48,385 bases of DNA from a virus. Location: the IMG/VR virus record IMGVR_UViG_3300028581_000070, positions 1 through 48,385 of that record; one strand, 5' to 3'. Position 1 is the first letter of the stretch. Each line of letters opens with the position of its first letter. The notes under the pieces are model-generated. The model was not told where the DNA came from, did not search any database, and saw only the letters and a program-made list of their open reading frames with translations. This document shows, piece after piece, positions 545-20,549 of the stretch. The translations under genes were made by a program, and so were the position numbers.

Positions 545-1613
545 CGTAAAAAGTCTCATTGTTGAATCAGTGAGTAAATTAGAGAAGAAAGATTTTAAAA
601 TCTATTTCTTCGTCATGGATACCAAAGGTAATCCTTTAGCTTCAGTAGCTACAATATATGAACACGCTAAATTATTGCGTGAATTAGGGTATGAATCGTT
701 GATTCTCCATGAAAAAAATGATTACGCCCCAATGGGGTTATCATTAGGTGATGAGTACGCACAGATACCTCACGTTTCAATAGAAGGTGGACAGTTAAAA
801 GTTAATACACAGGATTTTATTGTAATACCTGAAATTTTCTCTAATGTTATGGAACAAACAGCAAAGTTACCAAGTAAGAGAATTGTATTTTCACAATCGT
901 ATGACTATATCTTTGAAATGTTATTACCTGGAAAAAATTGGGCAGATTTTGGTATTACCGATGTAATTACTACAACGGAAAAACAAAAAGAGTATGTTGA
1001 AAACCTTTTCAGTAAGAGAGTTAAAGCTGAAGTAATACCTGTGAGTATTCCAGAATATTTTAAACCTTCAGATACACCTAAAAAACCAATCATCGCCATC
1101 TCAACTCGTGACCAAAGAGATTTGGTTAAAATTTACAAAACATTTTATTTAAAATACCCTCACCTTAAGTGGGTGTCATTCCGTGACATGAGAGGTTTAC
1201 CTAAAGAATCTTTCGCTAAAGCATTGAGTGAATCTTGTTTAGCTATTTGGATTGATGAAGAATCATCTTTTGGTACTTTCCCTTTAGAGGCTATGAAATC
1301 TAATGTACCTGTTTTAGGTAAAGTTCCTAATATGGTACCAGAATGGATGGATGATAAAAACGGTCTTTGGACTCATGATATTTTAATGGTTGCTGATTTA
1401 GCGGCAAACTATTTTCAAACTTGGTTAGAAGATGGTGAACCACAAGAACTATTTGATGAAATGTCAAAAGCAAAAGAATTATATACCGTTTCAAAACAAA
1501 AAGAAAAAATTGAAGAAGTTTACGGTAAATTTTTCCAAAATAGAATTAACGAACTTAAAGCTATGTTACCAGCTGAAGTTGAAAATAACGTAGAACCACA
1601 AAAAACTGTTTAA
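534..1613 (+). CDS. GT-B-type glycosyltransferase-like protein
   Basis: A 359-residue protein with two Rossmann-like halves. The N-terminal half has an acceptor-side pattern (VMDTKGNPLAS, then AKLLRELGYES around residues 35-50). The C-terminal half (about 185-300) contains a donor-side pattern with SSFGTFPLEAMKSNVPVLG, which resembles the E-x7-E loop region of GT4-type enzymes. It is followed without a gap by a GT-A-type enzyme, suggesting a two-enzyme glycosylation module. The acceptor could be phage DNA, virion protein or host surface; the sequence does not decide. Family level is fairly secure, substrate unknown. Confidence 0.75.
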   Translation: MEDNVKSLIVESVSKLEKKDFKIYFFVMDTKGNPLASVATIYEHAKLLRELGYESLILHEKNDYAPMGLSLGDEYAQIPHVSIEGGQLKVNTQDFIVIPEIFSNVMEQTAKLPSKRIVFSQSYDYIFEMLLPGKNWADFGITDVITTTEKQKEYVENLFSKRVKAEVIPVSIPEYFKPSDTPKKPIIAISTRDQRDLVKIYKTFYLKYPHLKWVSFRDMRGLPKESFAKALSESCLAIWIDEESSFGTFPLEAMKSNVPVLGKVPNMVPEWMDDKNGLWTHDILMVADLAANYFQTWLEDGEPQELFDEMSKAKELYTVSKQKEKIEEVYGKFFQNRINELKAMLPAEVENNVEPQKTV

Positions 1614-1614
1614 A

Positions 1615-2406
1615 ATGATTAATACAACTGTTATATTACCAATCCATAAAATGGATGATACTATTAGTTCTTATTTAGAAAAGGCTATTAAGAGTATCGA
1701 AAATCAAAAAGTTAAACCAGAGGAATTATTAATTGTAGTTCCAAAAGGGTTAGAAATTAAAGTTGAAACACCTACTGATGTTAAGTTAAGAATTATCGAA
1801 AATGAAGGTAATATTGATTTCGTATCACAAGTTAATCTTGGTGTTGAAAACGTGAAAACCACATATTTTAGTATTCTAGAAGTAGATGATGAATATTCTA
1901 AGATTTGGTTTGATAATGTTGCTAAACATATTGAAGCTTATAACGAAGTTGATGTTTTCTTACCGATAGTACTTGATGTATCTGTAGAAGGTAGATTTTT
2001 ACATTTCACAAATGAACCTGTTTGGGCAAAAGAATTTTCGGATAAACTAGGTTTCTTAGACAATGACGCATTACTTAATTACCCAAACTTCCAACTTTCG
2101 GGAGCGGTTATTAAAGTTGAGGCTTTTAAAGCTGTTGGTGGGTTAAAACCAAGTATTAAATTACATTTTATCTATGAGTTCTTATTAAGAATGTCATATT
2201 ACGATAAAAAGATGATGACAGTACCTAAATTAGGTTATAAGAAAACCAATATGAGACCTGATTCACTTTTCTTTAACTACTACAATGGTGAAGAAAAAAT
2301 TGATACAATCGAAGCAAGATTTTGGTTTAACACCGCAAGAAAAGAGTGTTATTTTAAAAACGATCGTGGAATAAAATTTGATAGAGAAAATGCTACAATC
2401 CAATAA
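1615..2406 (+). CDS. GT2-like (GT-A fold) glycosyltransferase
   Basis: A 263-residue protein opening with the typical GT2 strand-loop TTVILPIHKMDDTIS and a helix containing AIKSIENQ. An acidic VDDEY motif near residue 87 is in the position of the metal-binding DxD. A later hydrophobic segment and a FKAVGG element (around 185) resemble the acceptor part of GT2 proteins. It starts two bases after the previous stop, and its own stop shares one base with the next start (TAATG), so it belongs to one operon with the upstream GT-B protein and the sigma factor. Substrate unknown. Confidence 0.75.
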   Translation: MINTTVILPIHKMDDTISSYLEKAIKSIENQKVKPEELLIVVPKGLEIKVETPTDVKLRIIENEGNIDFVSQVNLGVENVKTTYFSILEVDDEYSKIWFDNVAKHIEAYNEVDVFLPIVLDVSVEGRFLHFTNEPVWAKEFSDKLGFLDNDALLNYPNFQLSGAVIKVEAFKAVGGLKPSIKLHFIYEFLLRMSYYDKKMMTVPKLGYKKTNMRPDSLFFNYYNGEEKIDTIEARFWFNTARKECYFKNDRGIKFDRENATIQ

Positions 2407-3179
2407 TGGAAGAGGAGAAAAAAAGAGGCCGAAAGCCCGCAAAGGATCCTTATTTTGGTATAATACAAGAAGACGCTGTTAAAGAATTCCTATCATTAGG
2501 CTGTATGGTTGAAGATAAGAGGGCCATAGACGGTTTCATGTGGACTGGTACAACCAAAGAAGAATTTAGACGTAACGAAATATATCGATTACATCTTCAA
2601 AGTCCCCTTAATACTATGATTGAAAGTATTATTAGGAGATATAAACTTTATTCTAAGAACATGTCTTTTGAGGACTTACACTCAGATACTTTATCATTTT
2701 TAATGATAAAATTCCATAAATTTAAGCCAGCAAAGAATAAAAAATCATATTCTTATTACGGTACTGTTTGTAAACATTATCTTTTAGGTAAATTAATTAA
2801 AGACGATAAAAAACTAAAAACATTAATTTCATATGAAGACATTTCTTCTGAATTGGAGGAAAATGAAGACCTATCTTATAATATTGACAACCAAGAAGTA
2901 GATTTAACATTCTTACTGGAAGATATTTGTTCTAGTATTAAAGAAGAATTAGAAAATAAAATTCTAAATGAAAACGAAATCAGAGTTGGCAACGCTTTAA
3001 TATCAATTTTAGAAAATTGGGAGGGTGTCTTCGAAGGTCAAGAGGCGACAAACAAATACAACAAAAATCTTATATTATATTACATGAGAGAAATTACAGC
3101 TCTTAGTACAAAAGACATAAGAAACGCAATGAAACGATATAAAACAATTTATAAGTTAATTAAAGATGGTGGTTTATAA
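2406..3179 (+). CDS. 55: gp55-like late-transcription sigma factor
   Basis: A 257-residue protein with a basic start (EEEKKRGRKPAKDP) and a central region (about 75-140) that parallels T4 gp55: a helix containing MIESIIRRYKLY, an EDLHSDTLSFLMIKFHKFKP segment that aligns with the sigma region 2 helices, then YGTVCKHYLLGKLIKDDKK, which matches the gp55 pattern of a Tyr/Cys-rich turn followed by basic residues. In T4, gp55 directs host RNA polymerase to late promoters together with gp33 and the sliding clamp; neither partner is identified here. The gene ends inside a perfect hairpin terminator. The ATATTTAT motif before many genes of this window is a candidate target. Confidence 0.7.
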   Translation: MEEEKKRGRKPAKDPYFGIIQEDAVKEFLSLGCMVEDKRAIDGFMWTGTTKEEFRRNEIYRLHLQSPLNTMIESIIRRYKLYSKNMSFEDLHSDTLSFLMIKFHKFKPAKNKKSYSYYGTVCKHYLLGKLIKDDKKLKTLISYEDISSELEENEDLSYNIDNQEVDLTFLLEDICSSIKEELENKILNENEIRVGNALISILENWEGVFEGQEATNKYNKNLILYYMREITALSTKDIRNAMKRYKTIYKLIKDGGL

Positions 3180-3194
3180 AAAACCACCATTTTG
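3166..3194 (+). terminator. Terminator overlapping the end of the sigma factor gene
   Basis: Perfect 10-bp stem ATGGTGGTTT / AAACCACCAT (3166-3175 and 3181-3190) with a 5-base loop, followed by TTTTG. The left arm contains the last codons and the stop overlaps the loop. Confidence 0.7.
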
Positions 3195-3202
3195 ATATTT
3201 AT
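3195..3202 (+). promoter_or_regulatory. Candidate late promoter core ATATTTAT for 3220
   Basis: Reads GATATTTATAAGCAAAT on the coding strand, 17 bases before the ATG at 3220 and just after the terminator. It opens the structural block 3220-8354. Confidence 0.55.
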
Positions 3203-3219
3203 AAGCAAATAAACTGTTT

Positions 3220-3615
3220 ATGGCAAGACCGAAGAAAAAAGAAGTTAAATTAACAACAGATAGTTTTTTATCTATGGCTCAAGAGGCCTATAATGAACTT
3301 GTTGAACAAAGAAGTACTTGTATTAGAACTATTAACGAAAATAAAACTAAAGTTAATGTCGAAGACATGCATGATTTAGCTAATCTTAATAAAGCAAATA
3401 CTGATTTATTAAAAATTGTCGATACAACTATAGATAAAAAATTAAGTCTAGTTAAGTTACTTAGTCAATTAATCTTTAAACCAGGTTCTAGTACTGGTGA
3501 AAATACATCTGATGGTAACATATCACCAGAAGATATGGTATTGTTAAGGGATCTTTTCAAAGATGACGGTGATAAAAAAGATGACAACGATAAAAAAGAC
3601 TATAAAATTAAATAA
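3220..3615 (+). CDS. Helical protein of unknown function
   Basis: A 131-residue protein with a basic start (MARPKKKE), a long helical core (about 15-90, including ANTDLLKIVDTTIDKKL) and a very acidic/basic tail of Asp-Lys repeats. The all-helical core between two charged ends would fit a small adaptor, such as a small terminase or a transcription co-factor, but no diagnostic motif is present. It stops immediately before the next ATG at 3616, so it is in one operon with the baseplate genes. Confidence 0.75.
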   Translation: MARPKKKEVKLTTDSFLSMAQEAYNELVEQRSTCIRTINENKTKVNVEDMHDLANLNKANTDLLKIVDTTIDKKLSLVKLLSQLIFKPGSSTGENTSDGNISPEDMVLLRDLFKDDGDKKDDNDKKDYKIK

Positions 3616-5049
3616 ATGGGGTTCATCAATGATAAACAACAAGCCATTAATAATGTTGCTCTTTTTGAGGTATTAGGAAATTTACCAAAAGGAAGGTCAA
3701 CATCCTCCCTGCAATCTGTTATATCAAAAAATAAAAATCTATTACCTTATTTAATCGATTTACTAAGTGTTACTTGTAAAGATAACGCTAAGTCACCCAA
3801 GGATAAGGGTAAGTGTGAGGCGGCAAGAATATTAGTTGAAATATTAATACAATTCTTTCCGGCATTAATTAAAATACTAAAAGAGGGGTTCATCCAGGGT
3901 ATTAAAGCTGGTTTAGCTTGTGGGGCTGATTTTACAATACCAAGTCCAACACCAGTTATGACGGTTAAAGTAAAAGAAATCGATTTCGATGGTTTACTTA
4001 AAATTAACCCATCTTCAAGTAATGGTTCAATGTTTTATGGAAAAAATGCCACCACAGATTTTAATTGGTTTTTATATAACCTAATACAAACGGGTGGTTT
4101 TGCGTCTTGGAAAAATATATTGGATGTTACGTATTTACCTTTAACACAGGAATTTACAATGCAAATTAATAGTTCTTTTAGTGGTAGGAAATTCGATGAT
4201 TTTCTAATTGCTTACATCAACTCAATGGAACTACTTTCATTAGAAAATATGATGTCTAAATTAATGAATAACTTAACTGGTTCATTAGGTGCTAACCTAC
4301 CAAATGTTAATGCAAGTTTAGATTCGTTAATAGCAAAAGAAAAAACTAACTCATTACAAGAAAGAATAACTAGTACCGATCCTTATAAAGAGGAATATCA
4401 GACAGATGATAGTTTTTTCAAATTTAGTAATGATGAGTTATTTGAAATAGAAAATGTCGCTAATCAAAAATATTTAGGTACCATTAATATAGATTTGGGG
4501 TGTGGTTTATTAGCTCTAACTTCAGATCCACAAGTGGTTAAATCAGTGTTTGATGAAGTAAGAAATACACCACCTTCTAAGGTTAATGTTGTTGTTGAAA
4601 AATCTATGACAACATTAAATAATAATTTAACGGTGGGTGTTCCAGAAGAAGATAAGAAAAAATCTAAAGAATCTCTTAATTTTAAATTAATTAATGATTT
4701 TCCTAAAGTATTAACCAATGTTGGTTTAGAACCTAAAATTGTTGCACTATATCAAATATCATCGAAAACTATTAATGACATTACTGTTAAAGCAACTAAC
4801 GGTTTTGATTATGCTAAAGCGACCAAAGTTTTTTTTGAGTTCATTTCCAGAGAGTCTTTAGCGGCTTTAATAGAAATTATATTTAAACAAGTTAAACATG
4901 AACTCATAAAATTAGTTGCTGAGATTGGTGTTAAAATTGTTAAAGAACAGGCAAAAATAAAAATGAAAGCAATAGCGAGTATTGTAACTGGTGTTGTTGA
5001 AGGTGCAATTATAACTATGCCAACGCCTAACACTTCAGAATTCACATAA
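3616..5049 (+). CDS. Predicted tail/baseplate structural protein
   Basis: A 477-residue protein without a recognised domain. It has hydrophobic helical segments near residues 45-60 and 72-92 and a C-terminal amphipathic helical region (about 395-465), with Asn/Ser/Thr-rich central sequence typical of virion proteins. It sits directly upstream of a small Gly-rich protein and the gp5-like spike gene, all within a few bases of each other, so a place in the baseplate hub region is inferred from position only. Confidence 0.7.
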   Translation: MGFINDKQQAINNVALFEVLGNLPKGRSTSSLQSVISKNKNLLPYLIDLLSVTCKDNAKSPKDKGKCEAARILVEILIQFFPALIKILKEGFIQGIKAGLACGADFTIPSPTPVMTVKVKEIDFDGLLKINPSSSNGSMFYGKNATTDFNWFLYNLIQTGGFASWKNILDVTYLPLTQEFTMQINSSFSGRKFDDFLIAYINSMELLSLENMMSKLMNNLTGSLGANLPNVNASLDSLIAKEKTNSLQERITSTDPYKEEYQTDDSFFKFSNDELFEIENVANQKYLGTINIDLGCGLLALTSDPQVVKSVFDEVRNTPPSKVNVVVEKSMTTLNNNLTVGVPEEDKKKSKESLNFKLINDFPKVLTNVGLEPKIVALYQISSKTINDITVKATNGFDYAKATKVFFEFISRESLAALIEIIFKQVKHELIKLVAEIGVKIVKEQAKIKMKAIASIVTGVVEGAIITMPTPNTSEFT

Positions 5050-5051
5050 AA

Positions 5052-5480
5052 ATGGGAAAATGTAAAGAAATAAATCCGAATTGTACGGATTTTAAAAATC
5101 CAAATTCAATTTTAGCCTCTTTGTTAAATTTATTTAAATTACCAACTTCGAGGTCTTCATCCATGCCAACACCTTTGATTTTAGCCTCAACAGCTAGACC
5201 TGGATTAAGTCCATCAAAGGTTGCGGCAAGAATAATTCAGAGACAGGCTGACGCCGGTATACCAGTAGGCCCACTACCAAGTGGTAAAGTATCACCCGCT
5301 GAAATAATGGAACGAATTAGGATGGAAGAAATTATTGGTGCAATAACATCGGAGATGGTTATTGATGTGGCTGTAAAGCCTGGTACTATTATTCAAGGTA
5401 CTGGTGGTAACGCTGGTGGACCAGTACAGGTTGCTGGTAGTGTTGTCGGTATCGCCTCAGGTAATGCAACAGCTAGATAG
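5052..5480 (+). CDS. Small Gly/Ala-rich structural protein
   Basis: A 142-residue protein. The N-terminal part has a CKEINPNC pair of cysteines; the middle is a helical segment (about 55-100) and the last 35 residues are rich in Gly, Ala and Val (GTGGNAGGPVQVAGS). It begins two bases after the previous stop and is followed at two bases by a 60-residue gene. Function unknown; the location among baseplate genes suggests a minor virion component. Confidence 0.7.
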   Translation: MGKCKEINPNCTDFKNPNSILASLLNLFKLPTSRSSSMPTPLILASTARPGLSPSKVAARIIQRQADAGIPVGPLPSGKVSPAEIMERIRMEEIIGAITSEMVIDVAVKPGTIIQGTGGNAGGPVQVAGSVVGIASGNATAR

Positions 5481-5482
5481 TT

Positions 5483-5665
5483 ATGGAAAATATTAAAAAT
5501 AAAGGTAATGTTGAGTTGACCCAAATTCAAAAAGAATTAGCGACTGAATTCGAATCTGTCAGAAAAGATTTAATTAAAGTTTATGATTATTGGATTTCAG
5601 TTGAAAAAAAATATAATGAAGTTACTAACGAATTAAATTCAAGATTCGGAATAGATAATAAGTAA
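5483..5665 (+). CDS. Short coiled-coil protein
   Basis: A 60-residue, almost entirely helical, charged protein (ELATEFESVRKDLIKVYDYW) with heptad-like spacing of hydrophobic residues. It is placed tightly between two structural genes (two bases after one, fifteen before the next), which is the main reason to accept it as real. Function unknown. Confidence 0.65.
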   Translation: MENIKNKGNVELTQIQKELATEFESVRKDLIKVYDYWISVEKKYNEVTNELNSRFGIDNK

Positions 5666-5680
5666 TTAAAAAAGGTATAA

Positions 5681-6775
5681 ATGAGTGATCAAGTTTGGGG
5701 TAGTGTCACTATAGACCAAAAAACTTTTCCCCTGTGGCATTATGGTATTGTTGTTTCTATTGACGATCCTTATGTAGCTGGTAGAATTAGGGTTAGAATA
5801 GAAGGTGTCGATAATGATATCTCACAATCAAATGAATTATTAGATCCAGATAAAGGTGGACTCCCTTGGTGTCAACCCTTGATGCCGAAATTTATTAATG
5901 TTGTACCTATTGTAGGTGAGACTGTTAAAGTCGCTGTATTTGATTTTCGTAATAAAAAAATAAGAAGAGAATATATAGGCCCTGTAATCTCACAACAAAG
6001 ACCACCAGAATTACTTAAGTCACCATTTTTCCCTAATAAATGGCGTGTTGAAGTTGGTAATTACAATGGAGCTTGGACTGAAGATCCTGAATCTTTAGAT
6101 GGTAGCTGGAAAATATATCCAGATAAAGAAGATATTGCATTATTGGGTAGGAGAAATACTGATATTATTTTAAGAAATAAATCTGAATATGATGAAATAA
6201 TATTAAGAGCTGGTAAAATAGATTATAAAGATATTATTGATCCTTCAAATGGTAGTAATAACAGCAATATTTTAGGGGGTAATTTCAAATTAAACAAAGT
6301 TAACCCCGCTTACATTACAATAAACCACACACTACCACAAACTTTTACATCTACAAATGAAGAGGATGTCACAAAGAAAAAATTAAATTTAGATGATGAT
6401 AGAACCCACATCAATGTGGTTGCAGATAAGATTAATCTTATTAGTCACGAAGGTTCGTCAATACGTGGTTACGCACCGGCTATTTTGAAGGGTGATGATG
6501 TATTAACCCAACTTAAAACAGAAAACGATGATTTACATCCGTTACTATATGGTGATGTTTTATGGGATTTTATGACTAAAATGAGAGCCTTTGTTGAGGG
6601 CCATATACATCCTTATAGTGGGTTACCTCCAGATCCTTCTTTAGTTACATCAGATTTAATAACTTGGTTTAATAATAATATGGGTAAAAAGACGACCAAG
6701 AAAAATTTAGATGATACACCATATACAGATATTGAAGGTTGTACATTCTTAAGTCGTGGTGTTAAAACTAATTAA
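5681..6775 (+). CDS. 5: gp5-like baseplate spike protein (OB-fold, no lysozyme domain)
   Basis: A 364-residue protein whose first 110 residues match the OB-fold domain of T4 gp5 / VgrG-like spikes: YGIVVSIDDPYVAGRIRVRI, then GGLPWCQPLMPKF and a VGETVKVAVFD strand. In T4, gp5 joins this domain to a lysozyme and a beta-helix needle. Here no lysozyme-type segment is seen; the remainder contains short strand-rich sequence (TDIILRNKSEYDEIILRAG) like the start of a needle, and ends in HIHPYSGLPPDPS, a pattern common at the tip of phage spike proteins. It probably forms the central hub spike. The murein hydrolase function must be elsewhere, possibly the gene at 37383. Confidence 0.75.
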   Translation: MSDQVWGSVTIDQKTFPLWHYGIVVSIDDPYVAGRIRVRIEGVDNDISQSNELLDPDKGGLPWCQPLMPKFINVVPIVGETVKVAVFDFRNKKIRREYIGPVISQQRPPELLKSPFFPNKWRVEVGNYNGAWTEDPESLDGSWKIYPDKEDIALLGRRNTDIILRNKSEYDEIILRAGKIDYKDIIDPSNGSNNSNILGGNFKLNKVNPAYITINHTLPQTFTSTNEEDVTKKKLNLDDDRTHINVVADKINLISHEGSSIRGYAPAILKGDDVLTQLKTENDDLHPLLYGDVLWDFMTKMRAFVEGHIHPYSGLPPDPSLVTSDLITWFNNNMGKKTTKKNLDDTPYTDIEGCTFLSRGVKTN

Positions 6776-6784
6776 ATCCTTGTG

Positions 6785-6792
6785 ATATTTAT
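6785..6792 (+). promoter_or_regulatory. Candidate late promoter core ATATTTAT for 6807
   Basis: Reads GATATTTATTATAAAAAG, matching the fullest form of the consensus, 14 bases before the ATG at 6807. Confidence 0.6.
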
Positions 6793-6806
6793 TATAAAAA
6801 GATTTA

Positions 6807-8354
6807 ATGGGAATATTACGTTCATACTTCTCCAAAGACAATACAATTGTTAGAAATTCGTCTGTTAATACAGGGAGGAATCCTATTGTGGAGTTATTCC
6901 ATGGTGGTTCACTTAATCCAGATTTATTAAAATATTCAAGATACATTTTCGATGTTGATTTTGAACAAATTATTCAAAAAATAAACACAAAAGAAATTGG
7001 TTCTGTTACTAATATGAGACACGTTCTCAAAATGACTAACACTTCCTGTTTTGACGAAGAACAATTTTGTCGCACTGTTTCATCTTGTATAGGTGATATT
7101 AAAAGAGCTACGTGTTTTGATTTAACACTTTTTGAGGTACCTGAATCCTGGTGTGAAGGTAACGGTTACGATTACACACCAATAAAAGTTTCATGTGCTG
7201 ACGGTGATAAAACATATTGTGAAGGACCTTCAAATTGGTTCCAAAGAGAAAGTTTAATTACGTGTTGGTCAAATGAAGGGATTTATAACGACCCAACCAA
7301 TTGGTGTTCCAGTTCTGGAACAACTTCAGGTTCTTCTGGTACAACAGTATGTAGTGGTGGAACTAATTTAGTGGTTGCCACACAACACTTCGACCATGGA
7401 GATGAAAACGTATGTATCGATATAACAGACTACATTAACGGTCTTATATTGAGTGGATATACAGGTTTAACCTACGGTTTAGGTTTAGCTTTCCATTATC
7501 CTTTAGAAATTGCTCCATTGGCCGATGCAGAATATGTCGGATTCTTTGGTAGAGAAACGAATACGGTTTATGAACCATTCCTTGAGACAACTTGGGATGA
7601 TGTTATTAAAGATGACCGTAACAAATTCTATTTAAATAAATGTAATGATATATGTCTTTATGTTAACGCAGGTGGACAAGCTGTTAACGCCACTTTTACT
7701 GGTGTTACAATATATAACCAAAACGATAATGTGTTCATGTCAATCCCACCGTCTGGTATTACACAAATAACAACTGGTGTTTATTCGGTTAATATTTGTG
7801 TCGATGATGATCCTATCTCTGGATATTGTGGAAATATTCAATTCCGTGATGTTTGGGAAGGGGTTAAAATTGGTAATAAAAAATTAGGTGATGTTGAACT
7901 TACTTTCATTGTAAAAGACGATACTGGATATTATAATATTGGTTCCACTTTAAGTGCTGGTGCTAATGGATTGGGTGTTGGTGATTCAACTAACATGTCA
8001 ATTTATGACTACGAATTCAACGTTACTGGTATTAAATACAAAGAAAAAATTAAGAGAGGTGATACTAGACGAGTTAATGTAAATGTACGTATACCATATC
8101 AGTATGACCAATCAGCTATTATAGATAAAGTTTATTATAGAATTTATATTAAAGAAGGTGGTAGTGTTGAAATAGAATATATCGATTGGCATGAAGTAAG
8201 TAGAACTGTAGATGGTAACTTTTTCTTAGTTGATACATCTTGGTTTATACCTAATGATTATTTTATGGAACTTAAAATTGAATCTGGTAATGAAGTCAGA
8301 ACTTATCCATCTGTAATTCCATTCACAATTGTATCAGAAAAGGATTGGTGTTAA
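6807..8354 (+). CDS. Cys-rich tail/baseplate structural protein
   Basis: A 515-residue beta-rich protein. Residues about 50-260 contain an unusual number of cysteines (EEQFCRTVSSC, ESWCEGNG, NWCSSSG) and the pattern of a DNRLRE-like carbohydrate/wall-binding module: a conserved W, a VCIDITDYINGL strand, YGLGLAFHYP and GFFGRETNTVYEPFLETTW. The C-terminal half has repeated strand motifs resembling Ig-like or baseplate wedge domains. The phage particle is assembled in the cytoplasm, so the cysteines are more likely metal-binding or free than disulphides. It closes the + strand tail block and is followed by a bidirectional terminator. Confidence 0.65.
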   Translation: MGILRSYFSKDNTIVRNSSVNTGRNPIVELFHGGSLNPDLLKYSRYIFDVDFEQIIQKINTKEIGSVTNMRHVLKMTNTSCFDEEQFCRTVSSCIGDIKRATCFDLTLFEVPESWCEGNGYDYTPIKVSCADGDKTYCEGPSNWFQRESLITCWSNEGIYNDPTNWCSSSGTTSGSSGTTVCSGGTNLVVATQHFDHGDENVCIDITDYINGLILSGYTGLTYGLGLAFHYPLEIAPLADAEYVGFFGRETNTVYEPFLETTWDDVIKDDRNKFYLNKCNDICLYVNAGGQAVNATFTGVTIYNQNDNVFMSIPPSGITQITTGVYSVNICVDDDPISGYCGNIQFRDVWEGVKIGNKKLGDVELTFIVKDDTGYYNIGSTLSAGANGLGVGDSTNMSIYDYEFNVTGIKYKEKIKRGDTRRVNVNVRIPYQYDQSAIIDKVYYRIYIKEGGSVEIEYIDWHEVSRTVDGNFFLVDTSWFIPNDYFMELKIESGNEVRTYPSVIPFTIVSEKDWC

Positions 8355-10702: not shown

Positions 10703-10969
10703 ATGAAAGACATGAAATTCAAAACCCTTAAAGAACAATACACTGAAATGATGGCTAATAAAATAGCTGTTAGTGTTGAGGACTTAACTGACAATGAAAG
10801 AAAACTCATTGAAGCTGGTTATGAGTCTTTTAAGGAAAAACTTGAGGATATTAAAATTATCGGTGATGATTTTAAAAGAGTTTCCGTTGAATTAGCTAAC
10901 TTAAAATCTTACCAAGACGACAGTAATCGTGATAGGTGGTATAAAGATGGTGATGACGATGATGATTAA
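10703..10969 (+). CDS. Small acidic helical protein
   Basis: An 88-residue, charged, helical protein ending in a run of aspartates (DGDDDDD). No motif recognised. Its last four bases overlap the end of the convergent gene 10966-11403. Expression from a leaderless host-type promoter suggests an early or middle gene; the acidic tail could mimic nucleic acid, but that is speculation. Confidence 0.65.
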   Translation: MKDMKFKTLKEQYTEMMANKIAVSVEDLTDNERKLIEAGYESFKEKLEDIKIIGDDFKRVSVELANLKSYQDDSNRDRWYKDGDDDDD

Positions 10970-11403
10970 TCGTTTATATCGTTTAGATACTGTCTAATAC
11001 TTCTTCTAAGTACTGGCGTATTAATTTCACTAAAAACAGTAACAAGTTCTTGGTATAACTTATTAACTAGGTATTTCTTATTTTCGTCAATAAAATAAGG
11101 TTTATCATCGACTACTATGTAAACTTTATTATCATAGGCTTCAATCATATCGGTTTGCCACCTACCTATAACATAGTTATCTTCTAAATATTTTATCACA
11201 TTATATTCAACCCCAAAAGGATCACCAATCCAATCGAAATCATTTTCTTCAGATTCTTTTAAGTATTTTTTGGTGTTATCCACCCCACATTTATGGCAAA
11301 CATATGGATCATCACCACCTTCAGATAATTTCCAAGACCACCCACATTCACAAGTAACTGATTTGACCTCTTCTTTTAATATTTTCTTAATTAAATCCCT
11401 CAT
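10966..11403 (-). CDS. Zinc-ribbon protein with capsid-targeting-like N-terminus
   Basis: A 145-residue protein with three parts. Residues 1-11 (MRDLIKKILKE) form a basic amphipathic segment ending LKE. Residues 18-39 carry CEC and CHKC pairs in a GWSWKLSEGGDDPYVC context, a four-cysteine zinc ribbon. A second part begins YLKESEENDFDWIGDP and continues with strand-rich sequence. The ENDFDW(I/V)GD element recurs right after the leader of the CCA/2H enzyme at 16985, showing that these proteins share modules. The leader fits (I/L)xE cleavage by the phage's own gp21-like protease, so I infer a packaged protein. Target of the zinc ribbon unknown. Confidence 0.75.
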   Translation of the reverse strand: MRDLIKKILKEEVKSVTCECGWSWKLSEGGDDPYVCHKCGVDNTKKYLKESEENDFDWIGDPFGVEYNVIKYLEDNYVIGRWQTDMIEAYDNKVYIVVDDKPYFIDENKKYLVNKLYQELVTVFSEINTPVLRRSIRQYLNDIND

Positions 11404-11473: not shown

Positions 11474-13210
11474 TTATCTTAACTCTCTGATATCAAAAGT
11501 ACGTAAACCGTCAACTCTGATGTGTCCGTAGAAACGGTTATTAACCATTTTCTTAGCGTAACGAGTCATGATACCTTTAACAGGTACGAAGTTAAACGGA
11601 TTGTACATTGTAGGCGTAAGCTGCATCGGCACGTATGGTGCGTAGATGTAACCAGTGTCTAACAATGACTTACCTTTGTGTCCAATCAATACTGAGTATG
11701 ATGGAGAATATGGGTCACGATATACACTGTAACGTCCAGAAAGTGAACCGATTCTCTCGATACCCATGTTATACTGATCTTGCTCAGGAGCTGCGTTTGA
11801 TACGTGGAAGTACTCTAAGTCATCCATTACCGCTGATACTTCAGACGATACAACAACGAAGTTAGCACCACCTCTTAAAGTAGCTTTGTGAATTTGAGCT
11901 GAGATTTGATTGATAGCTGTAATCAATGTCTGGTTCCAATCTTTTTGAGTGTAACCATTGTTGTTTGGTAAACGCTTCCAACCGTTGTAATCCCAACGTA
12001 ATTGCCATGCCGCACCTTTACGTAAATCCATTAAGATTTCACGGTCAATTTCAGCTGCAACTTGCTCTGATAATAAAGCTGTTAATTCAGCTTCTGCATC
12101 AATGTTGTGGAATGCACTAACGTCTTGAGCTAATTCAGGAGTCCAAGTAGCTCTTAACTTTCTTTCAGTAACGGAAACTGTTACAGATTCAAGTTCGAAC
12201 GATACTTCACCCATTTCTGAAGTCATTTCAAGATCTTCGTACTGTCTCCAAGTAATCGCTACTGAAGCGTTAGTGATTGTAGTTGCTGTGTAGTTAGCTC
12301 CGATGTAACCATCAAAACTACTTCTTTGACAACTAACACAAGTTGGATGAGTTAAATCTAGGTCGATATTAAGTTTTCCGTCTGGAGTACAAATATCACC
12401 ATAGTCAACAATACCTCTACCGTATTTTTGAGTTAACAAACGGAAAGGAACAGTATTACCAACATTAAAAATTACTTGACCATCGATGTCAGTAATTGTT
12501 GTGTTTGCGATAACAGTTAATGAAGCTAAGAAAGATTCAGTATCCATCTCATTTCCATCAGGACCGATTAAACGACCAGGAGCTGAGTTGTTGAAACCAG
12601 TTACCTGAACGATTTGGTTACGTAATGAACCATCTGATGCTGCTGGAGTTTTACCTGCTGTAAGATTGAAACCACCAGTACAAGCTGTCCAAGTTACCGA
12701 AGTACCTGAAGCGATTTTTACTGTGATATTACCTTTTGACTGGTCAAACATACCATCATTATAGAATCTATCGTAAAGATTCTTTGCACAATTACCGAAT
12801 ACTGCTTCTGGACAGTTAACACATTCTGCTACATACATTGAATTGTGTGTACCATCTGAGTTTCTATCAGAAGTCTTAGGTACGAAGTAGAACAATTTAC
12901 CGATAGGTAAGTTCAAAGCTTGTACTGATACGATGTCGTTCGCTAATAATTTAGAGAATACACGTCTAACGATAGGGAAAACTACAGTCTCGAAAGAACC
13001 AGTAGATTGACCACCAGCTGCTTGAGTTGACTCGTTAATAAGAACTGATGCTTGGTTTTCATATAACAAAGCGATGTTCTCTCTAATGTGGCCTTCTAAG
13101 CCCTCAAGGAATCCTAATGAATCCCATTTGTTTACAGTTGCCTCACGGATAGCCTTTTGGTGCTTTAATCCGATATTACCAACTTCACCTGATTTTAATA
13201 AATATCCCAT
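11474..13210 (-). CDS. 23: Major capsid protein (gp23-like)
   Basis: A 578-residue protein with the T4 gp23 landmarks: a helical N-terminal propeptide, LINESTQAAGG at 57-67 as counterpart of the T4 LTE-AEIGG cleavage region, VVFPIVRRVFSKLLANDIVSVQ as the start of the mature fold, KLRATWTPELAQDVSAFHNI and DAEAELTALLSEQVAAEIDR in the middle, and IYAPYVPMQLTP plus MTRYAKKM near the end. Cleavage is expected after INE (58-60), removing 60 residues. A Cys-rich insert (about 125-145 and again in HPTCVSCQRS) is unlike T4 gp23. It follows the scaffold gene with a 29-base gap and no motif of its own. Confidence 0.92.
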   Translation of the reverse strand: MGYLLKSGEVGNIGLKHQKAIREATVNKWDSLGFLEGLEGHIRENIALLYENQASVLINESTQAAGGQSTGSFETVVFPIVRRVFSKLLANDIVSVQALNLPIGKLFYFVPKTSDRNSDGTHNSMYVAECVNCPEAVFGNCAKNLYDRFYNDGMFDQSKGNITVKIASGTSVTWTACTGGFNLTAGKTPAASDGSLRNQIVQVTGFNNSAPGRLIGPDGNEMDTESFLASLTVIANTTITDIDGQVIFNVGNTVPFRLLTQKYGRGIVDYGDICTPDGKLNIDLDLTHPTCVSCQRSSFDGYIGANYTATTITNASVAITWRQYEDLEMTSEMGEVSFELESVTVSVTERKLRATWTPELAQDVSAFHNIDAEAELTALLSEQVAAEIDREILMDLRKGAAWQLRWDYNGWKRLPNNNGYTQKDWNQTLITAINQISAQIHKATLRGGANFVVVSSEVSAVMDDLEYFHVSNAAPEQDQYNMGIERIGSLSGRYSVYRDPYSPSYSVLIGHKGKSLLDTGYIYAPYVPMQLTPTMYNPFNFVPVKGIMTRYAKKMVNNRFYGHIRVDGLRTFDIRELR

Positions 13211-13239: not shown

Positions 13240-14622
13240 TTATTTTTTATAATTGTATTCCCAAAGTTTCTTCATTTCTTTTAACTCTGGATGTACAAAG
13301 ACGCTTTGTTCACTAATTTGTGATGCCCCACTTGAAGCCGTTTTGTTAATCTTCTCGTCGATTGACTCCTTAATTGGAGCTTTACCACTTGAATATTCCT
13401 TCATCAGTTGCTTATAAATAGACTGTGATTCTTTAATGCTCTTAGCACCATCAAGTCTTTTTAAAATTTCTTGTTTTTCGTCTTTTGTAGTGGAATTCTC
13501 AGTAAATAGTCTTACAGCGTAAGTAAGATTACTATTAAAAACTGCTACTTCTTGAAGTTTAGTTCTGAACTGTTTAAGAGCGTCAACCATTTTATCGTGA
13601 TTCCCTTTAAGTTCTTTGTTCTCATTTTCAAGAGTTAGGTTTTTTGTATTTAAACTTGTATTTTCTTTTCTAAGTTTTATAACTTTAGATTCAGTCACAC
13701 TCTCATGTGTAATACCCGCTCTAGAACCTTGTCCTTGTTTAATACGCTTGTATTTTAAATTATGAGACATGTAATCAGTATCTTTTGGCCCACTCATGTA
13801 TGACATATTATCTTCATTTTCTTCTTCTTCTTCACCAGCTTCGAATTCCATAGATTCGGTAGATTCGTGTCCATAAGACTCACCATCTTCATCATCATCT
13901 ACTACAATTTCGTAGATGATTCCCTCTTCTAAAGTATCGTTGTCAGTGCCTTCACCTAATTCAAGTTCTGGTTCCATTTCGATTTCAGAAGTTTCAACAC
14001 TTCCAATTCCTTGACCACCACCTGCGTTAAGTTCGATACGATATTCTGAACCAGATTTATTATCTTTTAAGGTTACCATTCCGTTGTCATTTACAACTTC
14101 GATTTCATCTTCTGGGCCCATTTTCTTAAAAACAGAGATTACATCGGAGTCACTAGCACCTGTAAGGTCCATAGTTTCAACATCAGTTTCGTCACCTAGA
14201 CCTAAGTCAGTGTTATCCTCACCGCCGAAATCAAGACCACCTAAATCAGTGTCTTCACCTCCGTCGTCAAGTCCACCTAAGTCTAAGTCAATATCTTCAG
14301 TGTCATCTAAATCTTCGTCCTCGTCTCCAAGTTCAAGATCTAATTCACCTTCAATACCTTCTTCACCTTCTGTGTTTTCGTCCTCATCACCTTCTCCTTC
14401 AACTTCGTCATCAGAATCCAATTCTAAGTCCAAATCTAATTCATCCTCTTCCTTCAAATTCCTTTTTTTCTTCGAACCAGTTAATGATTCCTTTACCATT
14501 TCTTCAATTTCTGAACCCATTGTGTGAGCCAGTATTTCTTTTGCGTTGGATTTGAAAGTGGCGTCAATTTGTGATGCCTCAAGAAGAGCTTCCTCAATAA
14601 TCGATTTCTTTTCGTTTGCCAT
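13240..14622 (-). CDS. 22: Prohead scaffold protein (gp22-like)
   Basis: The ATG at 14622 (MANEKKSIIEEALL) is preferred over the TTG two codons earlier. The product is 460 residues: an N-terminal helix with EEALLEASQIDA, like T4 gp22; a very acidic Asp/Glu/Gly-rich centre (about 65-280) with repeats such as DLGGLDFGGED; a coiled coil (about 315-365); and a C-terminal part with AVRLFTENSTTKDEKQEIL that resembles the gp22 tail. IKES and VKES occur several times, matching the (I/L)xE rule, as expected for a scaffold destroyed by the prohead protease. It is longer than T4 gp22 (269) mainly because of the acidic region. Lies directly upstream of the capsid gene. Confidence 0.85.
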   Translation of the reverse strand: MANEKKSIIEEALLEASQIDATFKSNAKEILAHTMGSEIEEMVKESLTGSKKKRNLKEEDELDLDLELDSDDEVEGEGDEDENTEGEEGIEGELDLELGDEDEDLDDTEDIDLDLGGLDDGGEDTDLGGLDFGGEDNTDLGLGDETDVETMDLTGASDSDVISVFKKMGPEDEIEVVNDNGMVTLKDNKSGSEYRIELNAGGGQGIGSVETSEIEMEPELELGEGTDNDTLEEGIIYEIVVDDDEDGESYGHESTESMEFEAGEEEEENEDNMSYMSGPKDTDYMSHNLKYKRIKQGQGSRAGITHESVTESKVIKLRKENTSLNTKNLTLENENKELKGNHDKMVDALKQFRTKLQEVAVFNSNLTYAVRLFTENSTTKDEKQEILKRLDGAKSIKESQSIYKQLMKEYSSGKAPIKESIDEKINKTASSGASQISEQSVFVHPELKEMKKLWEYNYKK

Positions 14623-14766: not shown

Positions 14767-15240
14767 ATGAAAAGAAACATTAAAAATATCTTAAGAGAAT
14801 TTACTGAAAACCGTATCAAAACTGAGAATTTTGATAAAAAAGTAGATTATATGCAAAAGAAAGCAAAAGAAAATTCAAACTATCCTGAGGCTACAGAAAA
14901 AGTTAGTTACATGAAAGATAAGATAGAAAAAGATGTTAGAGACGCATATATTGATGTAACTGGTGAAGAACCCGTTAATGATGAAATTGTTATTACCGTT
15001 GATGATAACATTAAAGACGGTAAGATTGGATCATTCAAACATCCAGAAAATGGAAAAGACCTTGGAGATATGAAAATACACCCCAAGGCCTTAAAAGATA
15101 CAGAATACGTTAAAGATATTATTAAACACGAATTAATTCATGCAGCTCACGGAGTTGAAGACACCGAAGGTAGAAACCATGGTGGTGTGTTTCAAAAAGT
15201 GGCTGACCGTGTTGGTTTACCTAAAAAATATCGTAATTAA
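14767..15240 (+). CDS. SprT-like HExxH metallopeptidase with capsid-targeting-like N-terminus
   Basis: A 157-residue protein. Residues 1-11 (MKRNIKNILRE) form a basic helix ending LRE. Residues 20-55 contain two similar segments (KKVDYMQKKAK and EKVSYMKDKIE). The C-terminal domain has the zinc motif HELIH (121-125) followed by a second histidine in NHGGVFQKVADRVGLP (H138), as in SprT-like minigluzincin peptidases. Catalytic residues appear complete. The leader and the candidate late promoter suggest a packaged protein; it could act on scaffold, or be injected and act on host proteins. It lies between scaffold and prohead protease on the opposite strand. Substrate unknown. Confidence 0.8.
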   Translation: MKRNIKNILREFTENRIKTENFDKKVDYMQKKAKENSNYPEATEKVSYMKDKIEKDVRDAYIDVTGEEPVNDEIVITVDDNIKDGKIGSFKHPENGKDLGDMKIHPKALKDTEYVKDIIKHELIHAAHGVEDTEGRNHGGVFQKVADRVGLPKKYRN

Positions 15241-16121: not shown

Positions 16122-16934
16122 TTATCTTAAAAAATTATTTAATCCTTGTAATAATTTTTGATTTTTCGTGTTGGTAATATCAGTGAAGGGGATTGTTGTT
16201 GGCTTATATTCTTCTACTAAGCTCCATTGACAAGTGTATCCATTACAACCCATTTTATTTTCTACCGATTCAGTATATGTTTTTAAATCTGAAGAATCTG
16301 AAGATATCCACGAACCTGGGGTTGATGGTGAAGTTACAATATCCCAACAAATTAATTCGAAGTCGTCTTGAACAACATTCTTACCACCTTCTTGTTTAAG
16401 GGATCCAACACCACGAGATGAAATACCAACTGTCCAACCTTTTCTAATCATGTTGACAACCTTGTCACCGACAGAACTAATAACACCTAATTTATGATAA
16501 CCTGGGGTAGTATCTAGTTCTAATTTACCCATTAAGGTTTTACCTTCCCACCAAGTTTCTGTGATTCTATGCGAAACTCTATCAGCATCAATGATTGATG
16601 ATTCTGGGTGGTTTAATTCACCAAGTGAGGTTCCCATTTTAATATATTCTTGATATCTATCATTTTCTCTTTCAAGAATCTCTTTAGGATATATCCTTCC
16701 GTTTTTATTTTCAATACCCCATTTTTGAAGTACGGCATAAACAATAACCACATCAGGCAAACTACCGTCTTTACCGATATTTGTACCTGATTTAAATTCA
16801 TTTAATGTTAATAAATGTTCTTTAATTAAATCGGAATTCTTTCTACCTTTGTATGTTAAATCAGGGGAAATGTATCCAGAGTCGTATTCAACTAAAATAC
16901 CTTTACCTGTATCACCTGGTCTTAAAATTTTCAT
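16122..16934 (-). CDS. 21: Prohead protease (gp21-like, S80 family)
   Basis: The ATG at 16934 is used rather than the TTG two codons upstream, giving 270 residues. Match to T4 gp21: NKNGRIYPKEILE (77-89), LGELNHPES (104-112) holding the catalytic His109, ETWWEGKTLMGKLEL (126-140), GWTVGISSRGVGSL (166-179) holding the nucleophilic Ser, and SPSTPGSWIS further on. This enzyme is activated in the assembled prohead and cuts capsid, scaffold and internal proteins after (I/L)xE. The N-terminal 60 residues are longer than in T4 and may be a propeptide. The C-terminal part (MGCNGYTCQW and beyond) is phage-specific. Confidence 0.9.
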   Translation of the reverse strand: MKILRPGDTGKGILVEYDSGYISPDLTYKGRKNSDLIKEHLLTLNEFKSGTNIGKDGSLPDVVIVYAVLQKWGIENKNGRIYPKEILERENDRYQEYIKMGTSLGELNHPESSIIDADRVSHRITETWWEGKTLMGKLELDTTPGYHKLGVISSVGDKVVNMIRKGWTVGISSRGVGSLKQEGGKNVVQDDFELICWDIVTSPSTPGSWISSDSSDLKTYTESVENKMGCNGYTCQWSLVEEYKPTTIPFTDITNTKNQKLLQGLNNFLR

Positions 16935-16969: not shown

Positions 16970-16979
16970 CGATATTTAT
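16962..16979. promoter_or_regulatory. 18-bp palindrome: back-to-back promoter cores
   Basis: ATAAATATCGATATTTAT is a perfect palindrome made of one minus-oriented and one plus-oriented copy of GATATTTAT. The plus copy (16972-16979) is 5 bases before the CCA/2H gene; the minus copy serves the prohead protease. Confidence 0.55.
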
Positions 16980-16984
16980 CTTAT

Positions 16985-18925
16985 ATGAAGAATGTGGTTA
17001 GAAAAATCTTAAAAGAGAATGATTTTGATTGGGTCGGTGATATATTAAATTCAGAATATTTCCCTGCAACACCAGATATGTTAACCGTAGGTACAAAAAT
17101 TATTGTAGACGGACGTGAATTAGATGATGATGAAATTACCCTGGATGAATGGGAAATGGAACCTGGAACTATAATTTCTATTGAAAAATACAATGATAAT
17201 GATATTATATTAGTTAAATTTGATAATTGGATTAGTCCAGAGGGTAACAATATTGTCTTAAACTCCAGCCCAATGTGGAAAAATAAAAGGGAGGAATGTG
17301 CCGGAGATAATTGTTGGTCTTTTGTGAGAGAATATAGAAAATACCCCAATGAAGTTGATATTGACATATACTTACTAAACCCTAATTATAAAGAAAAATT
17401 GAAAGAAGAAACTATAAGAAGAGAATTAAAAATGGAACTACCAGATTCCGTATTAAGAATGAACCGTATTTTTAAAGAAAACGGTCATGAATTATATGTT
17501 GTTGGTGGTGCTGTTAGAGATTTATTAAATAAACAAGAGCCAAAAGATTTTGATTTGGCAACTGATGCTACACCAGAAAAAGTTAAATCCATGTTACGTA
17601 TGTATCGTACGATAGATATGGGGGAACAATTCGCTATTGTTAATGTTGTTACAGAAAATGGTCAATATGAGATTGCCACATTCCGTAAGGATATTGGTAA
17701 AGGTAGAAGACCCGATTCAGTAGAGTATACTTCAATCGACCAAGATGTATTACGTAGAGATTTAACAATGAATGCTCTTTTCTATGATATAGATAAGGGT
17801 GAAGTAGTTGACTTGGTTGGTGGTATTGGTGACATAGAAAGTAACATAGTTAGGACCGTTGGTTCCGCATCCGAACGCTTTGATGAAGATAAGTTACGTA
17901 TACTTAGAGCACTTAGGTTTGCAGCTAGAGTGGGTTCTGAATTAGATAAAGACATTATTGATGCAATAACCAAAGATAAAACACCCATTAGTGGTAATGG
18001 TTTACCGTTATCTCAAGAAAGAATTAGAGATGAATTTTTAAAAGGTATTAAACAGGCACAATCTGTTGGTTATTTTACTCAGATGATTGACAAGTATAAT
18101 TTATGGGATTGGATATTCTCACGTCTAGTAGTTACAACGGAACCAATGATTGAGACTAAAAATCCTTTAATATTAATAGCTACTTTATTGAGAAGTAACG
18201 ATGTTAGATTAGTTGAAAAAACTTTAGTTGACAGACTTAAGTATACTTCAGACGAGGGTAAACAGATTAGTTTCTTAATACAGTTTTTAGGTTTAAACTC
18301 TAGTAATGCATTTAAATTGAGGGAAAAATTTGAAACTAGTAAATTAGATGAAACAACTTTAATTGATTTCGCTAGATTTAACGGTATGAATATGAAATTA
18401 GTCGAAGCTTTCATAAAATATCGTATTACTACATCTGGTGATGCTCTTAAAAGAAGGGGGTTAGTGGGTAAGGAAATTGGTAATGAAAAGGAGAGATTAG
18501 AAAAAGAGATTTTTGATAAACTCATAACCGAATCTAAAAGAAGTGTCTCCTATTCAGCTATAGTATTAACTGAAGAATCTAGAAGTAGACTACTTGAGTA
18601 CGTTAAGACACCTGGTAATGATTTATTTGCAACTTGGGAAACTTTAGCTCACCATATGACTATTAATATGGGACCATTAAAAGATGAATACCGACCATTA
18701 TTAGGTCAGTCATTTGATTTATTGATTACTCACATCGGTAGAACGGATAAAGTTTTAGCTGTTAAAGTAGATACCGAATTTAGAACCAAAAATTTAAACC
18801 CGCATATTACTGTGGCGGTAAATAAAGGTGAGGGTGGTAAACCAGCAATGGCAAATCAAATAGACCAATGGACCCCTGTATACCCTTTCGAAGTGGAAGG
18901 TAAACTAGAAGAAATATATTTCTAA
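16985..18925 (+). CDS. cca: CCA-adding enzyme fused to a 2H phosphoesterase-like domain, with capsid-targeting-like leader
   Basis: A 646-residue, four-part protein. (1) Residues 1-10, MKNVVRKILKE-like basic leader ending LKE. (2) About 11-140, a module starting NDFDWVGD, shared with the zinc-ribbon gene at 10966. (3) About 145-440, a class II tRNA nucleotidyltransferase: GGAVRDLL near 173, DFDLATD near 188, RRDLTMNAL near 257, LRALRFAARVG near 303, LSQERIRDEF near 342. (4) About 530-646, a C-terminal domain with two HxT motifs, HHMTI near 556 and PHITV near 606, the signature of 2H phosphoesterases such as LigT. The combination would remove a 2',3'-cyclic phosphate and rebuild CCA on a damaged tRNA. 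Bacterial CCA enzymes often carry an HD domain instead. A candidate late promoter stands 5 bases upstream. Confidence 0.85.
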   Translation: MKNVVRKILKENDFDWVGDILNSEYFPATPDMLTVGTKIIVDGRELDDDEITLDEWEMEPGTIISIEKYNDNDIILVKFDNWISPEGNNIVLNSSPMWKNKREECAGDNCWSFVREYRKYPNEVDIDIYLLNPNYKEKLKEETIRRELKMELPDSVLRMNRIFKENGHELYVVGGAVRDLLNKQEPKDFDLATDATPEKVKSMLRMYRTIDMGEQFAIVNVVTENGQYEIATFRKDIGKGRRPDSVEYTSIDQDVLRRDLTMNALFYDIDKGEVVDLVGGIGDIESNIVRTVGSASERFDEDKLRILRALRFAARVGSELDKDIIDAITKDKTPISGNGLPLSQERIRDEFLKGIKQAQSVGYFTQMIDKYNLWDWIFSRLVVTTEPMIETKNPLILIATLLRSNDVRLVEKTLVDRLKYTSDEGKQISFLIQFLGLNSSNAFKLREKFETSKLDETTLIDFARFNGMNMKLVEAFIKYRITTSGDALKRRGLVGKEIGNEKERLEKEIFDKLITESKRSVSYSAIVLTEESRSRLLEYVKTPGNDLFATWETLAHHMTINMGPLKDEYRPLLGQSFDLLITHIGRTDKVLAVKVDTEFRTKNLNPHITVAVNKGEGGKPAMANQIDQWTPVYPFEVEGKLEEIYF

Positions 18926-19394: not shown

Positions 19395-20549
19395 CTATTG
19401 TTTTATTTGCTCCATTGTTATTCCAACCTTGTCAAATACAGTTTCAATCATCACTTTTGATACACAATAAGGGTCACAGTTAGCCGCTGGTCTTCTATCT
19501 TCAAAATAACCCCTCTCGTTGGTATAAGTAGCAACAGGTATACGAATACTCGAACCCCTATCACTATTACCAAAACTAAATTCTTCCATACTTGAAGTTT
19601 CGTGTCTACCTGTTAAACGTTTTTCATTTTCAACACCATATACATCGATGTGTTCTTTGTGACGTTCTTTTAGTTTTTCACAAGCTTCAAGAATCTTTTT
19701 TAATCCACCTTTATCACGCATTTCTTTTGTTGAAAAATTAACGTGACAACCACTACCGTTCCAATTACCTTCAACTGGTTTTGGACTGTAAGAAATACCG
19801 AACCCATGTTTTTCAACAACTCTTTCAAGTATGTATCGTGAAAGCCATAACTGATCCGAACCGTTAAGTGCTGTAACAGGACCTATTTGGTACTCCCATT
19901 GAGCAATTAAAACTTCAGCATTAATACCACCAATCATTAAACCGATTTCAGCACATTTATGTAAATGTTCCTCAACTAATTCTCGTCCGATAACATTTAA
20001 ACCACCCACACCACAATAGTAGTCACCCTGTGGTCTTGGTTTACCATCTGGTCCTGGATTAAACCCTAACGGGATTCCACCACCATATTTAAAATGATTT
20101 GTTTTATCTGGAGCGTGTGTAAGTACATATTCTTGCTCCCATCCGAACCACGGAACTTCTTTTAAGTTCGCATCGTATTCTTTTAATTTGAGTTCATTAA
20201 GAAGGTCTCTTAATTTAGCTCTTGTATTTGATTTATGTGGGGTTTTACCATCTGGGTTGAATACCTCACAATAAACTAATTTATGTTGATTCCCTCTAAA
20301 AGGATCGTCTACAACATAGACGGGTTTTAGTACACAATCTGTACCCTTAAAACCATACTTTTCTTCGTCTCCAGCTTGTTTAGTTGAACTGCCATCAAAA
20401 CTCCATAACGGATAAGATTCAGGATACCCTTGTTTAGGTTGCCCATCTGTTTCTAGGATATCAGTATTATCCACCACTTTAGTTTTAGACCTAATATTTT
20501 GTGGGATATTACCATCAAGCCAAATGTACTCTAAAAATACTTTACTCAT
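19395..20549 (-). CDS. glnA: Type II glutamine synthetase
   Basis: A 384-residue protein matching the eukaryote-type GSII family over its full length: beta-grasp start EYIWLDG with RSKT; LWSFDGSST; GWEQEYVL (glutamate ligands); GPDGKPRPQGDYYCGVG; INAEVLIAQWEYQIGP; GNWNGSGCHVNFST; KRLTGRHETSS; RGSSIRIP; and GYFEDRRPAANCDPY. ATP-, metal- and glutamate-binding residues look intact, so an active ATP-dependent glutamate-ammonia ligase is expected. This is an auxiliary metabolic gene, unusual in phages. It has no late-type motif; an inverted repeat lies at 20582-20604. Flavobacteria-type hosts may carry similar enzymes, so acquisition from a host is plausible. Confidence 0.92.
   Translation of the reverse strand: MSKVFLEYIWLDGNIPQNIRSKTKVVDNTDILETDGQPKQGYPESYPLWSFDGSSTKQAGDEEKYGFKGTDCVLKPVYVVDDPFRGNQHKLVYCEVFNPDGKTPHKSNTRAKLRDLLNELKLKEYDANLKEVPWFGWEQEYVLTHAPDKTNHFKYGGGIPLGFNPGPDGKPRPQGDYYCGVGGLNVIGRELVEEHLHKCAEIGLMIGGINAEVLIAQWEYQIGPVTALNGSDQLWLSRYILERVVEKHGFGISYSPKPVEGNWNGSGCHVNFSTKEMRDKGGLKKILEACEKLKERHKEHIDVYGVENEKRLTGRHETSSMEEFSFGNSDRGSSIRIPVATYTNERGYFEDRRPAANCDPYCVSKVMIETVFDKVGITMEQIKQ

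Follow-up and report, generated by a model that had tools for sequence, protein, structure and literature searches.

Why should a T4-like phage keep an enzyme for tRNA ends among its head genes? The question is raised by a 48 kb virus record, IMGVR_UViG_3300028581_000070, analysed over positions 1 to 48,385 (hereafter the window). The original prediction placed at 16985–18925 a protein joining a class II tRNA nucleotidyltransferase to a 2H phosphoesterase, and proposed that it might enter the host with the phage DNA and heal tRNAs cut by defence ribonucleases. The position proved exactly right, being that of an intact forward-strand open reading frame of 646 residues, and the union of the two enzymes in one protein is borne out by motifs, profiles and folds.

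Genomic setting

T4-like head genes encoding terminase, portal, prohead protease and major capsid protein are carried on the strand opposite to the fusion gene. The gp21-like prohead protease (16122–16934, reverse strand; phrog_207, 6.8e-42) is its divergent neighbour, and the gp23-like major capsid protein lies at 11474–13210 on the reverse strand (profile match 1.4e-63). The reverse-strand gene at 13240–14622, which has no profile match, is called a gp22-like scaffold or core protein by position and N-terminus only. The head cluster also holds a GlnII-like glutamine synthetase gene (19395–20549, reverse strand), in the interval between portal and prohead protease. By capsid protein, the closest cultured phages are Microcystis phage Mel-JY01, Flavobacterium phage immuto and Rhodothermus phage RM378, at about 36–40% identity. 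Among isolates from Bacteroidota hosts, phage immuto is the nearest, and such a host is plausible for the window phage. PADLOC returned no match for the fusion protein.

The nucleotidyltransferase

Residues 149–513 (17429–18523) form a class II CCA-adding enzyme with a head and a helical neck, body and tail. The nucleotidyltransferase had been claimed to be complete, and all its catalytic motifs are indeed found (GGAVRD..DFDL, RRDLTMNA, EDKLR and ERIRDEF), covering the class II features GGxVRD and DxD of motif A, RRD of motif B, EDxxR of motif D, and motif E. Profiles and fold agree: the protein matches Pfam PolyA_pol at 4e-35 and the PHROG tRNA nucleotidyltransferase at 6e-52 over residues 167–502, the PDB sequence matches concur, and residues 149–513 of the model superpose on the Bacillus CCA-adding enzyme with Z 27.1 and rmsd 3.8 over 343 residues. 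Mean pLDDT for the full-length fusion model is 82. A small N-terminal domain (residues 14–136; 17024–17392), modelled there with low pLDDT, is unique to the lineage of the fusion protein; it is present in two copies in L001, L002 and L004 and absent from L005–L009.

Some related CCA genes have unusual structures. In two distant phages the gene is broken in two at an identical site in the flexible loop, just after YEIATFR (L010, 5390–6330; L016, 5400–5610). The insert in L010 measures about 0.9 kb and carries what looks by eye like a GIY-YIG homing endonuclease, and Rfam gave no match at the gathering threshold on either contig, group I introns included. In L013 (3615–6602) a 995-residue protein devoid of a 2H domain combines cytidylyltransferase-like, apparent phosphatase-like and CCA-enzyme parts with a possible peptidase, as judged by eye.

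The 2H phosphoesterase domain

The C-terminal domain (residues 517–646; 18533–18922) carries two HxT motifs, H557-M-T559 (18653–18661) and H607-I-T609 (18803–18811), exactly 50 residues apart where a spacing of about 50 had been noted. Both are invariant in 48 homologues with identity down to 28%, and both are kept in eleven sequences with identity down to 25%. As a single sequence the C-terminus matches the Pfam CPD family only weakly and below the cut-off (E 0.02, 14.7 of 23 bits), yet 47 of the 48 family members match tRNA_lig_CPD (PF08302). An Allantoicase repeat was the top single-sequence match (E 0.005); it was rejected because just 3 of the 48 members match it, against 47 for CPD.

Structure prediction leads to the same assignment. 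The AlphaFold2 model of residues 517–646 reaches a pLDDT of 94.1, and in it a strand begins at each HxT (E41–45 and E91–96). CNPases are the best Foldseek matches, and VIA-align matches the whole domain to a CNPase (Z 13.9, rmsd 2.2 over 128 residues), ahead of the fungal KIN-CPD structure 6u05 (Trl1 CPD, Z 11.3) and of Acb1 and LigT-like enzymes, which score about 6 to 7 (Acb1 7.2). Profile searches against PDB sequences (A1, A2) returned no 2H structure, which was recovered by fold comparison alone. The domain thus belongs to the 2H phosphoesterase superfamily, its HxT motifs lying on strands that would face each other in the predicted bilobal fold, and by profile and fold it is nearer to the Trl1 CPD / CNPase branch than to LigT or Acb1.

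Distribution and association with RNA repair genes

The CCA-2H fusion occurs in eleven other viral contigs. It recurs in about six distinct and divergent lineages, which rules out a chimera or assembly artefact. In the tree of 2H domains, six of the seven CCA-2H rows cluster, though weakly supported (88/27), while L044 falls outside the cluster, so that one or two fusion events are possible. The 2H profile picked out at least 80 loci of viral and one of cellular origin, with architectures that include CCA-2H, P-loop kinase-2H (27 distinct proteins), stand-alone 2H and others. The kinase-2H protein of L045, for instance, matches AAA_33 at 6.5e-9 and CPD at 4.3e-6, both above the cut-off, in the domain order of fungal Trl1.

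The neighbours of these genes point in a common direction. A CCA enzyme is encoded in all 19 contigs searched, and where it and the 2H domain are separate genes they lie within about 10 kb of each other in 13 of 14 contigs. A ligase of the T4 Rnl1 type scores above the cut-off in 13/19 contigs and lies within 10 kb in most of those with kinase-2H genes. Since the 2H domain is fused to a CCA enzyme or a kinase and found near genes for CCA enzymes and RNA ligases, these domains belong to one RNA-repair module, and the position of the kinase-2H relatives strengthens the case for tRNA 3'-end healing with CCA re-addition. The large relative G001 (318 kb) has neither Rnl1 nor RtcB and gives a single Rnl2 match below threshold; there the 2H domain therefore most likely serves CCA re-addition and not ligation. 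The fusion contig L007 also carries an Rnl1 gene, which counts against tRNA 3'-end repair as the role of the fusion. Neither Tpt1/KptA (PF01885) nor RtcB (PF01139) was matched in the 19 contigs, although such absences are no proof because the completeness of most contigs is not established.

The G009–G021 contigs (e.g., L051, L097 and L108) combine a kinase-2H gene, a separate CCA enzyme and a T4-Rnl1-type ligase, mostly within about 10 kb. In G012 tRNA genes lie between the repair genes, and the G009–G021 contigs appear to contain a tRNA repair island.

Leader, synteny and upstream element

The fusion protein begins with MKNVVRKILKE (residues 1–11; 16985–17017), a leader resembling capsid-targeting sequences, with a predicted cut after LKE, that recurs on unrelated genes, both elsewhere in the window and in G001. 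The window holds a second such gene in the head region, encoding a SprT-like peptidase (14767–15240, forward strand; MKRNIKNILRE), and a third whose product looks zinc-ribbon-like by eye (10966–11403, reverse strand; MRDLIKKILKE). The strict leader pattern was found on 17 unrelated G001 genes against none of 1534 internal-Met controls. When 18 G001 leader genes were picked by the preceding residues only, with Glu not required, 17 of them carried Glu where the cut is predicted, compared with 7% in the background. The likeness to T4 capsid-targeting sequences proposed from the sequence is therefore real and recurrent, and leaders ending in (L/I)xE stand on unrelated proteins of the genome, as in T4-type capsid-targeted proteins. 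The motif [DE]FxW[VA] or a similar one follows the leader in 7 of the 18 G001 genes and in the window protein (17018–17035).

Among the kinase-2H proteins, 21 of 27 bear such a leader, and the six without it mostly start almost at the kinase. The leader thus behaves as an optional tag, and packaging would not be universal to the 2H family. The fusion gene, on the other hand, keeps a constant neighbour: gp21 is divergent and adjacent in all eleven fusion loci tested (L001–L010 and L044), across a short gap in L001–L010, while the N-terminal reading frame of L044 is truncated as listed. The CCA-only relatives tested gave no gp21 match within the flanks examined.

A late-type promoter had also been claimed. 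The exact T4 late box TATAAATA was not found upstream of the fusion gene, but a promoter-like element, ATATTTAT, lies at 16972–16979 on the forward strand, 13 nt upstream of the ATG, and is shared with structural genes. Of the 48 window genes, 16 have it in the 40 nt before their start, compared with 0.7% of random 40-mers, and among these 16 are terminase, prohead protease and tail-type genes; the portal's copy lies slightly further out. In G001, leader genes are preceded by the element more often than the remaining genes are (odds ratio 5, p 0.002). Strong copies stand at –15 to –30 upstream of many window and G001 genes, and often at –13 before leader genes. ATATTTAT is a candidate for the late promoter used by these phages. 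The proposal that the enzyme arrives with the DNA is supported by its leader, by the conserved position next to the prohead protease gene and by the element in common with structural genes; delivery of the fusion protein in the virion is itself probable rather than proven.

A proposed tRNA 3'-end repair pathway

Metal-independent ribonucleases that cut tRNA ends leave 2',3'-cyclic phosphates. The 2H domain would hydrolyse such a phosphate on a truncated tRNA tail to free the 3'-OH, whereupon the class II nucleotidyltransferase would re-add C and A and restore the CCA; against defences that leave a 3'-OH, only the nucleotidyltransferase would be needed. The leader would direct the protein into the prohead and be removed by gp21 after LKE. 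Copies injected with the genome could then restore host and phage tRNAs hit by ribonuclease-type defences, and may act before phage transcription. A bifunctional enzyme of tRNA 3'-end repair is likely. What the computation shows is the identity and fold of the domains, their conserved catalytic residues, the recurrence of both fusion and leader, and the synteny with gp21, whereas the two activities, the substrate, packaging, injection, timing and the anti-defence role are inferred. The fuller account, in which the enzyme is packaged by means of its leader and injected against tRNA-cutting defences, is somewhat probable.

Healing and re-extension of tRNA 3' ends, as first proposed, is still the best reading, with one amendment to its chemistry. 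CPD-type 2H enzymes such as CNPase and Trl1 leave a 2'-phosphate (PMC3400036), so that the product would be a 2'-phosphate with a 3'-OH and not a clean 2',3'-diol. This is the weak point of the mechanism, as it stands in tension with the lack of Tpt1 matches in the 19 contigs.

Alternative explanations

The closest competitor keeps both activities but gives them a domestic purpose: the enzyme would mature the phage's own CCA-less tRNAs, its 2H domain cleaning 3' ends left by processing ribonucleases; it would not be a counter-defence, and its leader would be incidental. Such a housekeeping role is possible because phage tRNA genes mostly lack an encoded CCA (18 of 22 in G001 and 41 of 45 in G012), and a tRNA cluster of G012 lies between its CCA and kinase-2H genes. 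Furthermore, among 205 tRNA genes in related loci, C74 is encoded in 203 and C75 in only 11, with A favoured at position 76. The preference for C74 is not a detection bias, because changing base 74 leaves detection by ARAGORN unaffected; C74 possibly serves RNase P pairing or later addition of CA. The fused gene, however, sits among head genes beside gp21, in a 48 kb window where no tRNA gene was found, its upstream element is common to structural genes and its leader is seen on unrelated proteins. Maturation alone requires no 2H domain, and several phage CCA enzymes do without one. It is therefore considered rather unlikely as the main role.

Two further explanations each reassign one half of the protein, and both are improbable. 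The nucleotidyltransferase might be a poly(A) polymerase or a partial enzyme adding CC or A, in keeping with near-equal NCBIfam scores for pcnB (184 bits) and the CCA model (182 bits), both far under the cut-off, and with a flexible loop two residues shorter than that of the Bacillus enzyme. NCBIfam does not decide between the two families, so that exact CCA addition is presumptive; still, PHROG names the enzyme a tRNA nucleotidyltransferase, and the poly(A)-polymerase signature of the literature, applied without a positive control, is absent from all members checked. The 2H domain, for its part, might act in the manner of anti-CBASS enzymes by degrading cyclic oligonucleotide signals, and be joined to the CCA enzyme only as packaged cargo. 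Acb1 is a phage 2H enzyme, in L019 a leader-bearing Acb1-like protein adjoins a relative of the window 2H domain, and packaged polyvalent proteins with 2H domains have been described, for which signal degradation is favoured (PMC5512222). Against this stand the CNPase and Trl1 CPD matches (Z 11 to 14) and the family-wide CPD assignment, far above the Acb1 score, and the 2H partners, all of which belong to RNA repair (kinase, CCA enzyme and nearby RNA ligases). The Acb1 profile PF23474 likewise matched none of the 48 family members at E 0.1.

As a separate observation, L019 carries beside its capsid gene (213–7141) a block of genes with leaders such as MIKLKSLI and MMTLKEMLLE. One of these genes encodes the Acb1-like 2H protein; the product of another matches ART weakly and may carry a peptidase motif.

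Relation to known systems

The nearest functional parallel is cellular. The HD domain of E. coli Cca has 2',3'-cyclic phosphodiesterase activity (Yakunin 2004, as cited in PMC10673834), and this domain is thought to aid tRNA end repair by E. coli Cca and its mycobacterial counterpart (PMC10673834). Like these CCA enzymes of E. coli and M. tuberculosis with their C-terminal HD domain, the window protein has a fused phosphohydrolase and follows the logic of end healing plus CCA addition. Unlike them, its phosphohydrolase is an unrelated 2H domain, is borne by a phage with a packaging-type leader, and follows a body and tail that align over their full length with CCA enzymes. With fungal Trl1 KIN-CPD and vertebrate CNPase it shares the 2H branch by fold and profile, and the phage kinase-2H relatives repeat the KIN-CPD order. 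In contrast to Trl1, the partner of the window 2H domain is a CCA enzyme; Pfam detects no Trl1-type ligase or kinase on the same chain, the kinase being confined to the relatives.

Among phages, the theme recalls the RNA repair genes of jumbo phages, where CCA enzymes, 2H, PNK and Rnl1/Rnl2 appear as separate components (Iyer et al., 2021, PMC7824862). Each component has thus been described in phages separately, while the available portions of that paper describe neither a CCA-2H fusion nor leader-tagged repair enzymes. The T4 internal proteins are injected anti-defence factors with only a CTS in common (PMC3012670). As in IPI and Alt, a short leader ending in (L/I)xE is found here on diverse cargo, and as in T4 a gp21-like protease and gp23 lie in the same cluster; the leader sequence differs, and the cargo is an RNA repair enzyme. 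The original prediction knew of no described system of this kind, and our search of the open-licence literature likewise brought up no account of a CCA enzyme fused to a 2H domain or of tRNA repair enzymes bearing such leaders.

Implications

Phage RNA repair is known mainly as repair of the anticodon loop by a kinase and a ligase, and the fusion protein points to repair at the other end of the tRNA. Cas12a3, one known member of which comes from a Bacteroidetes bacterium, cuts CCA tails, and its authors call viral resistance to it unknown (PMC12851939). An enzyme that restores CCA is a direct candidate for such resistance, and the question can now be tested. It is a tentative suggestion that a T4-like lineage packs a self-contained enzyme for healing tRNA 3' ends and restoring CCA, which would give immediate resistance to defences that cut the acceptor end, Cas12a3 included. 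Beyond this locus, the leader offers a sequence handle for predicting injected cargo in a large group of uncultured T4-like phages.
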